A stretch of 42,122 nucleotides of DNA, taken from the NCBI GenBank assembly GCA_949289855.1, contig CASEPS010000013.1:1-42122 (forward strand), written 5' to 3'. Under the pieces are notes generated by a model. The model had not been told where the DNA came from and made no database searches. It saw nothing but the letters and a program-made list of their open reading frames with translations. Positions 35,761 through 40,568 of this stretch are shown here, one piece after another. A program made the position numbers and the translations under genes. The DNA is from an uncultured Erysipelotrichaceae bacterium. GTDB taxonomy: Bacteria > Bacillota_I > Bacilli_A > Erysipelotrichales > Erysipelotrichaceae. The stretch's first letter is position 1. Every line of letters starts with the position of its first letter.

Positions 35761-36505
35761 TTTCAAGCCCGACAGGACAATGGTCAGACCCCATGACTTC
35801 ATCATAAATCATGGCATCTTTGACATTTTCTTTTATCCTGTTGGAAACAAGGAAGTAGTCAATACGCCACCCGGCATTTCTTTCCCTTGCCTTAAACCGG
35901 TAACTCCACCAGGAATACTTCACTATTTCCGGATACAGCATGCGGAACGTATCCGTAAAGCCGGCATTGAGCAGTTCTGTCATCTTTGCGCGCTCTTCAT
36001 CACTGAAACCGGCATTTTTGCGATTTGCCTGTGGATTTTTGATATCAATTTCCTCATGGGCAACATTGAGGTCACCTGTATAGATAACCGGCTTTGTCTC
36101 ATTGAGCTTCAACAGATGTGCCTTGAGATAACCTTCCCATTCCATGCGATAAGGCAGTCTTGCAAGCCCATCCTTGGAATTTGGTACATAGGCACATACA
36201 AAGTAGAAATCAGGATATTCCAATGTGATAACCCGTCCTTCCTTTGTCTCATCCCCATCAATGTCATATATCACTTGTAATGGTTCTTCCTTTGCATAGA
36301 CAAGCGTACCAGAATAGCCTTTTCTTTCAGCACTGTTCATGTAGAGATGATAGCCATCAAACCGCATGGCATCACTCAATTGATCTTCCTGCATTTTTGT
36401 TTCCTGAATGGCAAAAATATCCGCATCCGCACAATCAAAGAAGTCCTTAAACCCTTTGTTCATGCAGGCACGCAGGCCATTCACATTCCATGAGACAAGT
36501 TTCAT
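35750..36505 (-). CDS. xth: Exodeoxyribonuclease III (AP endonuclease)
   Basis: The 251-aa enzyme acts in base excision repair, cleaving abasic sites and 3' blocking groups. MKLVSWNVNGLRAC opens the fold with Asn7, FAIQETKMQ gives the metal ligand Glu35, YTGDLNVAHEEID gives Asp145 and Asn147, and GSDHCPVGLEIEF gives Asp241 and His242. Length is normal. ATG 36505 overlaps the stop of the M24 peptidase gene by 4 nt (ATGA) with GGGAGA upstream, so the two are translationally coupled. Confidence 0.97.
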   Translation of the reverse strand: MKLVSWNVNGLRACMNKGFKDFFDCADADIFAIQETKMQEDQLSDAMRFDGYHLYMNSAERKGYSGTLVYAKEEPLQVIYDIDGDETKEGRVITLEYPDFYFVCAYVPNSKDGLARLPYRMEWEGYLKAHLLKLNETKPVIYTGDLNVAHEEIDIKNPQANRKNAGFSDEERAKMTELLNAGFTDTFRMLYPEIVKYSWWSYRFKARERNAGWRIDYFLVSNRIKENVKDAMIYDEVMGSDHCPVGLEIEF

Positions 36506-38298
36506 CGTTCAATCTCCCTTGTGGCATTCTTCAGCCATGCCTTGTCACCTTCATCAAGATAAGGCGCAAGTGTCTCATAAACCGTTTCGTGATATGTGTT
36601 GATCTCAGCAATATTCTCATCACTCAGATACTGTACATCAATGGCATCAAGATCATATGGGCAGAATGTGAGGTTGGCAAAATGCATCCACTGTCCATAG
36701 AAATTCTCTTCTTCCTTTTCTACAAGCAATTCATTTTCAATGCGGATACCAAGCTCATGCGGCAGATAAATACCTGGTTCATCGGTCACAATCATACCTT
36801 CTTCTAATGGAATGAGGTTTCCTCTGACACCCCATCTCACACCATGCGGACCTTCATGGACCGAAAGCACATGACCAACACCATGACCAGTACCACACTG
36901 GTAGTCAATATGGAGGTTCCAGAGTGGTGCACGGGCAAGAATATCGAGGTTGTTGCCGGTTGTACCATAGAGGAATCTTGCATGGGCAAGATCAAGATGT
37001 CCCTTCAGCACAAGTGTATAATACTTCTTTTCTTCTTCTGTCAAACCACCAAGCGAAATAGTACGAGTGATATCTGTTGTACCATCGAGGTATGTACCAC
37101 CGCTGTCCACAAGCAGGAAACCCCTTGCCTTTACCAGAGAATACTTTTCTTCTGTTGCCGTGTAGTGCATCATTGCAGCATTTTCCTGGTATGCAGAAAT
37201 GGTTTCAAAACTCGGTTCAATATAACCTTCACCCATTTGGCGCAATGCATATAGCTTATCTGCAGCCGAAAGCTCTGTCATATCACCATTGCCAACGTTT
37301 TCCTTTACCCAGCGGATAAAGCGCACCATGGCAACCCCATCTTTGATATGGGCATTGAGCGTATTCTTTCGTTCTACTTCATTTTTGATGGCACGCATCA
37401 TGGCAACCGGTGATGCCTCATTGTGCACACGATTATTTCCCTTTCCCAGCATGTCATACATCTTTGTGTTCATCTTGGAAAGATCCGCCCATACAGTCTT
37501 GTTTTCCAGACTTGCAATGTCTTCATAAACAGCATCATATGCACAAACAAGCACACCATTATCCGCAAAGTACTGTTTCACTTCCTCATCAACCTTATCC
37601 ATGTCAATGTAGTAACGCACTTCACTTTCACGCAACAATGCAAAGGCATATGGTACTGGTGTGCAGGGAATATCATTGCCACGCACATTCAGCACCCAGC
37701 ATGGATCCTCCAAAGCATTGAGCACAAGCACATCTGCTTCCTTTTCCTGCATCTTCTCACGCACTTTTGCAATACGTTCCGCAACACTTTCACCAGTACA
37801 CGCCTCATCCAGCACAAAGATCTTCTCTTTTGGCAAAGATGGTCTGTCTTCCCAGATCATACCAACAAGGTCTTCACTGATATGCATCGTTGCATGTTTC
37901 TTTTGCAATGCTTTCTGCAGAAACAATGTCTCAGATGCACTGACCATTCTTCCATCAAACCCGAGAATGCCATTTTCTGGTGTATGTTCAACCAGAAACT
38001 CACGAACAGTCGGTACGCCTGCCTGTCCCATGCGCATCAGTTCTACTTCACTGCCGGCAAGTTCATCTTCGGCCTGGGTAAAGTATCTGCCATCTGTCCA
38101 AAGACCCGCAAAATCCTTTGTCACAACCACAAAACCGGAGTCTCCAGAAAAACCAGACAGCCATGACTTGCTTTTGTAGTAATCAGCTGTATATTCATCC
38201 GACAGATGATCATCCGCATTTGGTACATAGTAAACATCAATGTTTCTTTCAGCCATCAGTTTCCTGAGTTCAGCTATTTTTTCACTTGTATTCATCAT
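36502..38298 (-). CDS. Xaa-Pro aminopeptidase, M24B family (three-domain type)
   Basis: The 598-aa enzyme removes an N-terminal residue before proline. Two creatinase-like N-domains (residues 1-300) precede the metal-binding domain. Ligands are Asp398 in LLVDSGGTYLDG, Asp409 in TTDITR, His472 in GTGHGVGH, Glu507 in VTDEPGIY and Glu521 in RIENELL. It is longer than E. coli PepP and matches the eukaryotic-like APP form. ATG 38298 has GAGGT 6 nt upstream, and a TATAAT lies at 38316-38321. It is translationally coupled to xth. Confidence 0.94.
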   Translation of the reverse strand: MMNTSEKIAELRKLMAERNIDVYYVPNADDHLSDEYTADYYKSKSWLSGFSGDSGFVVVTKDFAGLWTDGRYFTQAEDELAGSEVELMRMGQAGVPTVREFLVEHTPENGILGFDGRMVSASETLFLQKALQKKHATMHISEDLVGMIWEDRPSLPKEKIFVLDEACTGESVAERIAKVREKMQEKEADVLVLNALEDPCWVLNVRGNDIPCTPVPYAFALLRESEVRYYIDMDKVDEEVKQYFADNGVLVCAYDAVYEDIASLENKTVWADLSKMNTKMYDMLGKGNNRVHNEASPVAMMRAIKNEVERKNTLNAHIKDGVAMVRFIRWVKENVGNGDMTELSAADKLYALRQMGEGYIEPSFETISAYQENAAMMHYTATEEKYSLVKARGFLLVDSGGTYLDGTTDITRTISLGGLTEEEKKYYTLVLKGHLDLAHARFLYGTTGNNLDILARAPLWNLHIDYQCGTGHGVGHVLSVHEGPHGVRWGVRGNLIPLEEGMIVTDEPGIYLPHELGIRIENELLVEKEEENFYGQWMHFANLTFCPYDLDAIDVQYLSDENIAEINTYHETVYETLAPYLDEGDKAWLKNATREIER

Positions 38299-38315
38299 TA
38301 ATTCACCTCGCATCT

Positions 38316-38321: not shown

Positions 38322-38410
38322 CCCATGAAAAAGTTTGTGACATATCATTGTGCTCCATATTGTTTCCTGCGGAAAAAATCGTTAATATTGTCATACAGGA
38401 GTGATTCAGG

Positions 38411-40543
38411 TTGTTAACAACGACAGTATTTGCAATATCTTCCCTTGCCTACCGTTCAAGCAAGGACACGATAGAAAGAGCTGTTTCTGCCATCGATGGT
38501 GTTATAGAAACAGACGTTTCTTTGTATTCCCGCACCATGCAGGTAACATATGATGATGAAAAAACAGATATCCGTACCATCATTCATACCGTATCTGCCT
38601 GTGGCTATACCGCATTTGTGCAAAGTGAGGAAACCGAAGTCATCGATCTTCCCACACACCCTATCCTTGAGCGCATTGAAATGACACGCATCTTTCTTTT
38701 TTTCGTCATTCTCCTTTCAGCTTTTCTGCATTTCACAGACTGGATTGGTTTTCTCTGTGCCACCATTATTTTATTTCTTTCAAAAGATATGTTGTTGCGT
38801 GGTATTTCCCTGCATCACACCAAACGCACAAACGATGATACGATGTCTGCCATCACCATCATCCTTTCGTGGCTCTCTGGCATCCTTGCCCTCTTGTTGA
38901 AAGAACATGCAGCACCGTTCTTCCTGGCTGCTTCTGGCACTTCCATTTTGCATGAACTGCTCACAAAGCGCATAAAAGAACATGACCGCAAGAATGCACG
39001 CATCATTGAAAAGAAAGAAAAACTGCCAACTTATGCAAGAGTCTATACCGACCATCACGAAGACATGGTACATCTTTCCTCTCTCAAAAAAGATGAACTG
39101 ATTGTTTTAAGACCTGGCAATGTAGTGCCTGCAGATGGCATCGTTATCAAAGGCTTTGCCCGCATTGATGAATCACGGCTTTCCGGCAAGAAAACACCTG
39201 TTGAGAAGAGGGAAAATGCTCATCTTTATGCAAACAGCATCGTTCTGGAAGGGGCATTGACCATGCGGGTAGAACAGACTGGTGCCACAACTGCCATGAT
39301 GCGCTTACGCCTTATGGCTGAAGACACAGCCCGAAGCCATCGCTATGCGACTCCATTAAACGGGTTCGGCACTATGTTATTCCCCTATATGTGCCTGGCT
39401 GCGCTGATCACCTTTGTCGGATGGTATTTCGCAGAAGGTGAACCGATGATGGCAATCGCCGCAGCACTTTCTGTTTGTGCTTCACAATGCACAACAGCCT
39501 TCTCCCTGGCAAGTTCAGAACCAGTCATCCATACAGCCATGGACTCTGCTGATCACCATATTCTTTTCAAAGACATCCGTGCCCTTTCTTCTTTAAGCAT
39601 GCTGGATGCAGTCATCATAGAAGAATGTGGAACAATCACTTCAGGAAACCTGATGGTCACCGACTTCATTCCATCCGATGGTGTACCTTCATCACATCTT
39701 GAATATATTATTTATGCGCTGCTTTCCAAAAGCCGACAGCCATTTTCCAAAGCTGTCATCCGCTATCTCAGAACAAAAAAGGTTAGTGACGTAGACAAGG
39801 GTGACTTCATTTCCCTCAACAGGCGTGGCAGAAGCATCTATAACAGCGTAGGAAGATGTACATATGGCACACCAGAACACCTTGCCAAAGATGGTATAAC
39901 CCTTGCGGCGTGGCACGAAACCATCACAAACCTTCGCAAAGACGGCAAACAGGTCATGTTATTTGCAGAAAACGGAAGAATCATAGGTGCTGTCGCCACA
40001 AGAAAACCTGTACTTGAAGGTGCTGTACACACTCTCAAAGCCTTACGTGAAAAGGAAATCACAACCATTGTTATCACTAGAGGAGAAGAAAATGAAGCCG
40101 CATGGCTCAAAGAACAACTCCCTGCAGATGAAGTGCTCTACAACCCGGACGATGCAGCACTACGTAATAAAATGACAGCTATGAAACAGGAAGGATTATT
40201 AGTTGCCTATATCAGTAACACCCATCCCGAACACTTTGAAGATGTTGCCGACATCTGTATCGCTTCTGATTGTGGTACAGACATTGCAAGAGATGGCTGT
40301 GGTATATTACTGACACGAGACTCCCTGGAAGATTTCTACCAGGCAATAGAAAACTCCACAACCATGGGAAAGACCATACGCAAAGGACAATCTATTGTCG
40401 TCATCTACCATGTCCTTATGGTCGTTATGATGGGTATTGCCATCCCAGCACTGTTCCACTTTACCTTCCCCATCTTCCTGAGTGCAGCATTTCCATTGCT
40501 GCTATCATTTGGAATACTGTATTTCAGCACAAAGAAAGCATAA
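38411..40543 (+). CDS. P1B-type ATPase-like protein lacking all catalytic motifs (pseudo-ATPase)
   Basis: This intact 710-aa protein has the full layout of a heavy-metal P-type ATPase: an HMA-like domain (residues 5-70), membrane helices (93-127, 147-180, 325-370, 660-702), an actuator domain (205-300) and P/N domains (398-645). Every signature is replaced. The metal motif GMxCxxC reads SLAYRSS; TGES reads SGKK (258-261); the ion-binding CPC of helix 4 reads SQC (358-360); DKTGT reads EECGT (404-408); the HP motif reads RQP; TGDN reads TRGE; and GDGxND becomes SNTHPEH (602-608). It cannot form the usual aspartyl-phosphate. The start is TTG 38411 with AGGAG 9 nt upstream. A non-catalytic role is inferred. 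Confidence 0.83.
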   Translation: MLTTTVFAISSLAYRSSKDTIERAVSAIDGVIETDVSLYSRTMQVTYDDEKTDIRTIIHTVSACGYTAFVQSEETEVIDLPTHPILERIEMTRIFLFFVILLSAFLHFTDWIGFLCATIILFLSKDMLLRGISLHHTKRTNDDTMSAITIILSWLSGILALLLKEHAAPFFLAASGTSILHELLTKRIKEHDRKNARIIEKKEKLPTYARVYTDHHEDMVHLSSLKKDELIVLRPGNVVPADGIVIKGFARIDESRLSGKKTPVEKRENAHLYANSIVLEGALTMRVEQTGATTAMMRLRLMAEDTARSHRYATPLNGFGTMLFPYMCLAALITFVGWYFAEGEPMMAIAAALSVCASQCTTAFSLASSEPVIHTAMDSADHHILFKDIRALSSLSMLDAVIIEECGTITSGNLMVTDFIPSDGVPSSHLEYIIYALLSKSRQPFSKAVIRYLRTKKVSDVDKGDFISLNRRGRSIYNSVGRCTYGTPEHLAKDGITLAAWHETITNLRKDGKQVMLFAENGRIIGAVATRKPVLEGAVHTLKALREKEITTIVITRGEENEAAWLKEQLPADEVLYNPDDAALRNKMTAMKQEGLLVAYISNTHPEHFEDVADICIASDCGTDIARDGCGILLTRDSLEDFYQAIENSTTMGKTIRKGQSIVVIYHVLMVVMMGIAIPALFHFTFPIFLSAAFPLLLSFGILYFSTKKA

Positions 40544-40544
40544 C

Positions 40545-40568
40545 AAAGGACTGCACTGCAGTCCTTTT
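40545..40568 (+). terminator. Terminator between the pseudo-ATPase and LCP genes
   Basis: AAAGGACTG (40545-40553) pairs perfectly with CAGTCCTTT (40559-40567) around five bases. The convergent LCP gene stops at 40568, so the hairpin serves both directions. Confidence 0.82.

Follow-up and report, generated by a model that had tools for sequence, protein, structure and literature searches.

A conserved CopA-related pseudoenzyme family in one genus of Erysipelotrichaceae and its probable ATP-independent role

The window, i.e., the whole stretch of 42,122 nucleotides analyzed here, carries a gene of the P1B-ATPase type transcribed divergently from a gene encoding aminopeptidase P; the features of the locus are collected in Table 1. 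The sequence-only reading had described a 710-codon frame with HMA-like, actuator (A), P, and N domains and about eight helices, and this architecture was borne out by Pfam matches, by alignment with CopA, and by an AlphaFold model.

Table 1. Features of the pseudo-P1B-ATPase locus in the window (aa, amino acid positions in the predicted protein).
Feature	Position	Strand	Remarks
Aminopeptidase P, divergent neighbor	36502..38313	-	Marks the syntenic site
Shine-Dalgarno AGGAG	38397..38401	+	9 nt 5' of the TTG start; basis: sequence
Pseudo-P1B-ATPase gene	38411..40543	+	710 codons plus stop; TTG start
HMA-like domain, aa 1-72	38411..38626	+	PF00403; CxxC replaced by Y-x-x-S at aa 14-17
Helices MA, MB, M1, M2, aa 88-203	38672..39019	+	Structure model and hydrophobicity
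Actuator domain, aa 204-309	39020..39337	+	PF00122; SGKK (aa 258-261) in place of TGES
Helices M3, M4, aa 317-382	39359..39556	+	Alignment and model; CTT (aa 360-362) in place of CPC
P and N domains, aa 383-650	39557..40360	+	Alignment and structure model
Helices M5, M6, aa 651-709	40361..40537	+	YN replaced by YH at aa 666-667; MxxSS lost
Stem-loop, terminator-like	40545..40567	.	Between convergent stops; consensus match only

The P1B-ATPase homology of the window protein is far above chance. Archaeoglobus fulgidus CopA (3j09) aligns with it end to end (E 3e-47), and scores exceed the respective cut-offs for the E1-E2 ATPase (PF00122, 99.9 vs. 28.1 bits), HMA (PF00403, 39.3 vs. 24.8 bits), and HAD Hydrolase (35.3 vs. 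26.4 bits) Pfam families. The heavy-metal P-type ATPase model TIGR01525 matches with an E-value of 8e-59, but its score of 199.9 bits falls short of the NCBIfam curated cut-off of 346.25 bits, i.e., below the threshold for a functional heavy-metal P-type ATPase. The AlphaFold model (mean pLDDT 83, pTM 0.73) comprises the HMA domain, eight transmembrane helices, and the A, P, and N domains; its best solved structural match is CopA 7r0g (Z 32.8 over 616 residues), and Foldseek comparisons with CopA structures gave E-values of about 1e-28 to 1e-32. Both homology across the A, P, N, and transmembrane regions and the fold formed by MA, MB, and M1-M6 were found, which places the protein in the P1B superfamily by descent. 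In many upstream regions, inspection by eye revealed promoter-like elements a short distance before the start codon, which suggests that the gene probably forms its own transcription unit; a pattern search upstream of the gene revealed no CopY-type or Fur-type operator, and PADLOC gave no match to a defense family.

Of 70 congeneric genomes (Solobacterium-like Erysipelotrichaceae), 23 carry an orthologue and 47 yielded no copy, so that altered-motif orthologues are now known from 22 other species. A search for related loci with the window protein alone returned no relative, whereas one with the family alignment did. They derive from Solobacterium and other Erysipelotrichaceae, mostly from metagenome-assembled genomes, several of rumen or gut origin. 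Copies are also present in NK3D112, whose record is not marked as metagenome-assembled, and in the one-contig genome G003, and the family is therefore not a binning artefact. Identity to the window copy is low, amounting to 22-34% overall in the multiple alignment and reaching 36% in local alignments. The family is nevertheless sharply delimited: its profile scores members at 695-1068 bits and the next match, an active CopA, at 430 bits, leaving a clean gap, and no member was found outside the genus among 294 genomes sampled from the order and 296 sampled from the class, although more distant or independently arisen pseudo-P1B proteins may exist in other groups. In the tree, the members form one clade beside CopA (SH-aLRT 100, stem of 1.86 changes per site), which is unsure in its inner branching order because of long branches. 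The pseudo-P1B family thus has a single origin.

To define what this family has lost, we compared its 23 members column by column with 13 active CopA proteins from the same bacterial family. Of the 170 CopA-invariant columns, the pseudo-family lost 88 and keeps 23. In the window protein, CxxC, TGES, CPC, DKTGT, HP, TGDN, GDGxND, YN, and MxxSS are all altered, including, within the P and N domains, DKTGT to EECGT (aa 404-408), HP to QP (443-444), TGDN to TRGE (556-559), and loss of GDGxND (601-606). The earlier claim that every motif had been replaced holds as far as the losses are concerned, but "every" was slightly too strong, as four partial remnants persist, namely G of TGES, Gly-Thr of DKTGT, T of TGDN, and Y of YN. 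Two details were also corrected: CPC is indeed altered, but the family alignment pairs it with C-T-T rather than with SQC (aa 358-360), so that the first cysteine happens to stay, and the altered HP motif reads QP instead of RQP.

Across the family, the Glu of the TGE dephosphorylation loop, the Lys of DKTG, and the Mg/phosphate residues (Asp of TGDN and Asp of GDG) occur in none of the 23 members. A complete set of the metal ligands CPC, YN, and MxxSS is likewise found in no member, CPC never being complete and MxxSS being lost. Many replacements are shared: the second Cys of CxxC is Ser (S17) and the Asn of YN is His (H667) in all 23 members, with Tyr (Y666) kept; the Lys of DKTG is Gln (Q405) in 21; the Asp of TGDN is Gly (G558) in 20; and H383 is common to 21. 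The most diverged member (L028, G002:C4:261411-263414) has the whole TGES loop deleted and keeps Pro at the CPC position. In P-type ATPases, any one of several such losses stops the catalytic cycle; judged by its sequence, the family is catalytically dead. At the phosphorylation site itself, Asp is retained in five members and replaced by Glu in 18, and five proteins (L017, L020, L021, L022, and L023) read D-Q-D there, resembling the DxD of HAD phosphatases. It could be argued that an E/D-Q-D-G-T sequence, with D at the third position in 14 of the 23 members and Asp at the nucleophile position in five, represents a regained DxDGT-like motif of a HAD-type hydrolase, but Glu at the nucleophile position in the majority and the loss of the motif IV GDG Asp in all members make this reading very improbable.

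Loss of catalytic residues would also be expected of a CopA paralogue on its way to becoming a pseudogene, and the fast evolution of the family (no member exceeds 36% identity with the window copy, vs. about 60-66% for the neighboring aminopeptidase P), together with the many lineages without the gene, is in line with such simple decay. However, none of the 23 frames, each of about 700 codons, contains an internal stop (an in-frame TAA considered as a disruption in L009 was rejected, being the normal terminal stop), the replacements described above are shared and in part invariant, and tblastn revealed no remnants in the region upstream of aminopeptidase P in twenty genomes without the gene. 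In two unsaturated pairs, dN/dS was 0.107 and 0.099 (range for unsaturated pairs, 0.08-0.11), indicating long purifying selection; the branch of the window copy, whose nearest orthologue is 36% identical, lies outside these pairs. The A domain showed values of 0.02-0.07 in the same two pairs. Among the other 22 members, 68 columns show at least 90% conservation, and the window copy itself keeps 60 of these. Because of the low dN/dS, the absence of internal stops, and the kept conserved columns, we rejected decay for the family as a whole and consider it very unlikely in the case of the window copy. Thus, the proposal that the frame was kept while the pump chemistry was lost, giving a neofunctionalized membrane protein, is supported by the altered-motif orthologues, the intact frames, and dN/dS, and it is well supported that the family represents a conserved pseudoenzyme whose fold and sequence remain under purifying selection across species after loss of the catalytic residues.

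In carriers, the gene nearly always adjoins aminopeptidase P, beyond which lie genes for exonuclease III and a dipeptidase, while in many genomes the other flank comprises a NUDIX gene and an amylase gene (all names assigned by eye from translations). The exception is G042, in which about 25 kb separate the copy from an aminopeptidase P gene of its contig; aminopeptidase P copies occur on several contigs of this genome (among them G042:C129 and G042:C95), and with a contamination estimate of 6, one of them may be foreign. In twenty copy-less genomes, tblastn found no remnants upstream of aminopeptidase P, and most of these genomes have NUDIX or other usual genes at the site. On the aminopeptidase P tree, in which the three long rows G020, G023, and G029 were disregarded as likely wrong-frame picks, carriers are widely scattered, and eight changes within the genus are required to explain the presence pattern, so the gene is dispensable in places. 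We read this pattern as presence in the genus ancestor followed by several clean losses, with mostly vertical inheritance at one locus. No partner gene specifically tied to the pseudo-P1B gene was found in the neighborhood. The NUDIX and alpha-amylase-like genes continue the locus in carriers and non-carriers alike (L042, L044, L046, L047, and others) and offer a stable anchor for presence/absence work.

Judged by mean pairwise identity per region, the constraint on the family has shifted, relative to CopA, away from the membrane path and onto the A and N domains in the cytoplasm. The A domain is conserved to 53% in the pseudo-family vs. 56% in the CopA set, the N domain to 43% vs. 38%, and the HMA domain to 43% vs. 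50%, whereas identity drops in the second half of the P domain (34% vs. 62%) and in the helices M1-M2 (19% vs. 64%), M4 (38% vs. 76%), M5 (42% vs. 70%), and M6 (23% vs. 79%). Since the CopA set covers more genera, the drop in helix conservation is not explained by sampling. The helices remain hydrophobic, and the best kept are M3 (43%), with a nearly invariant Gly-Trp, and M5. Such a distribution is consistent with a protein that is anchored in the membrane and works through its cytoplasmic surfaces, with additional kept features in M5 (the Tyr-His pair) and M3.

These features of M3 and M5 could also belong to a working transporter with altered chemistry, in which the Tyr-His pair forms a new site for an ion or small molecule moved passively or by a driving force other than ATP. 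The invariance of H667, the retention of Y666, and the M3 Gly-Trp speak for such a protein, but the poor conservation of M1, M2, and M6 is unlike a transport path, and we consider this explanation unlikely. Somewhat less likely again is an ATP-independent membrane receptor or regulator made from the P-type scaffold, in which the former copper site, rebuilt around the invariant Tyr-His pair, would detect a ligand, and the signal would be relayed to a cytoplasmic partner by the A and N domains.

On balance, we favor the view that a CopA-type P1B-ATPase was turned into an ATP-independent, membrane-anchored pseudoenzyme kept for a new role through partner or ligand binding. The protein probably has a new job that does not use ATP, and the conservation pattern, on which this assignment is based, points to an ATP-independent regulator or scaffold as the most likely one. 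At an early stage of one Erysipelotrichaceae genus, a CopA-type ancestor probably gave up phosphorylation by ATP, dephosphorylation, and metal ligation, after which the protein was retained for its new role. The protein would be located in the cytoplasmic membrane through its eight helices, now serving mainly as an anchor, while the HMA, A, and N domains would bind a partner or ligand without ATP. The conserved M5 Tyr-His pair occupies the former copper site and may be used there for sensing or binding something inside the membrane.

Although P-type ATPases are known from textbooks as pumps, to our knowledge they have, in contrast to kinases, hardly any established pseudoenzyme branch. The closest known relative of the family is CopA, a P1B-1 copper ATPase (PDB 7r0g, 3j09, 3rfu) with the same fold, domain order, eight helices, and N-terminal HMA domain, and the nearest clade in the tree; the window protein differs from it in sharing only about 21% identity and in having lost nearly all catalytic residues and metal ligands. 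The nearest precedents for the loss of pump chemistry are human TMEM94 (ERMA) and the P4-ATPase domain of Plasmodium guanylyl cyclase beta (PfGC-beta). TMEM94 resembles the family in its P-type-like architecture without a TGES loop, but it belongs to another class and its ATPase status is contested: one study found no ATPase activity and discussed D417 as a candidate phospho-Asp (PMC12134183), whereas another group describes an active ER Mg ATPase (PMC13322241). The P4-ATPase domain of PfGC-beta is degenerate (PMC6592433); this eukaryotic P4-type domain is fused to a cyclase and is not a free-standing P1B protein. In line with the earlier statement that no pseudo-P1B-ATPase of this kind had been described, we found no description of a bacterial P-type pseudoenzyme in the literature searched, which is weak evidence, as most subscription papers lay outside the search. 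The existence of a free-standing family in bacteria in which the entire scaffold was retained without its chemistry shows that the fold can be reused, and it provides a natural control for distinguishing which parts of the pump serve folding rather than catalysis.

Genuine metal pumps are encoded in the same genomes. A search of the window's genome identified a CsoR-like gene (assigned by eye) followed by copA, whose motifs are intact as far as the contig extends, as well as a second P1B pump (L003); the pseudo-P1B gene is linked to neither. At least one P1B pump above the family cut-off is present in all 23 carrier genomes, and the common fold could allow hetero-association, so that the protein might associate with the cell's own active CopA or Zn/Cd pump, either as a regulatory partner or as a decoy. 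Location outside the csoR-copA operon, the occurrence of CopA also in congeners without the pseudo-P1B gene, and three carriers in whose incomplete assemblies CopA is missing (G049, G051, and G055) argue against this, and no bacterial P1B pump that depends on a paralogous subunit is known to us. The partnership with an active CopA-type pump suggested earlier therefore gained no support from operon structure or strict co-occurrence; it is possible but unsupported, and we regard it as doubtful. Automatic annotation of family members as "heavy metal translocating ATPase" could inflate counts of metal resistance for genomes from gut and rumen. A small HMA protein carrying GMMCEGC (L107, G000:C7:51274-51444; identity by eye) is encoded after the apparent end of a FeoB-type transporter gene, with a flavodoxin-like gene further on (by eye).
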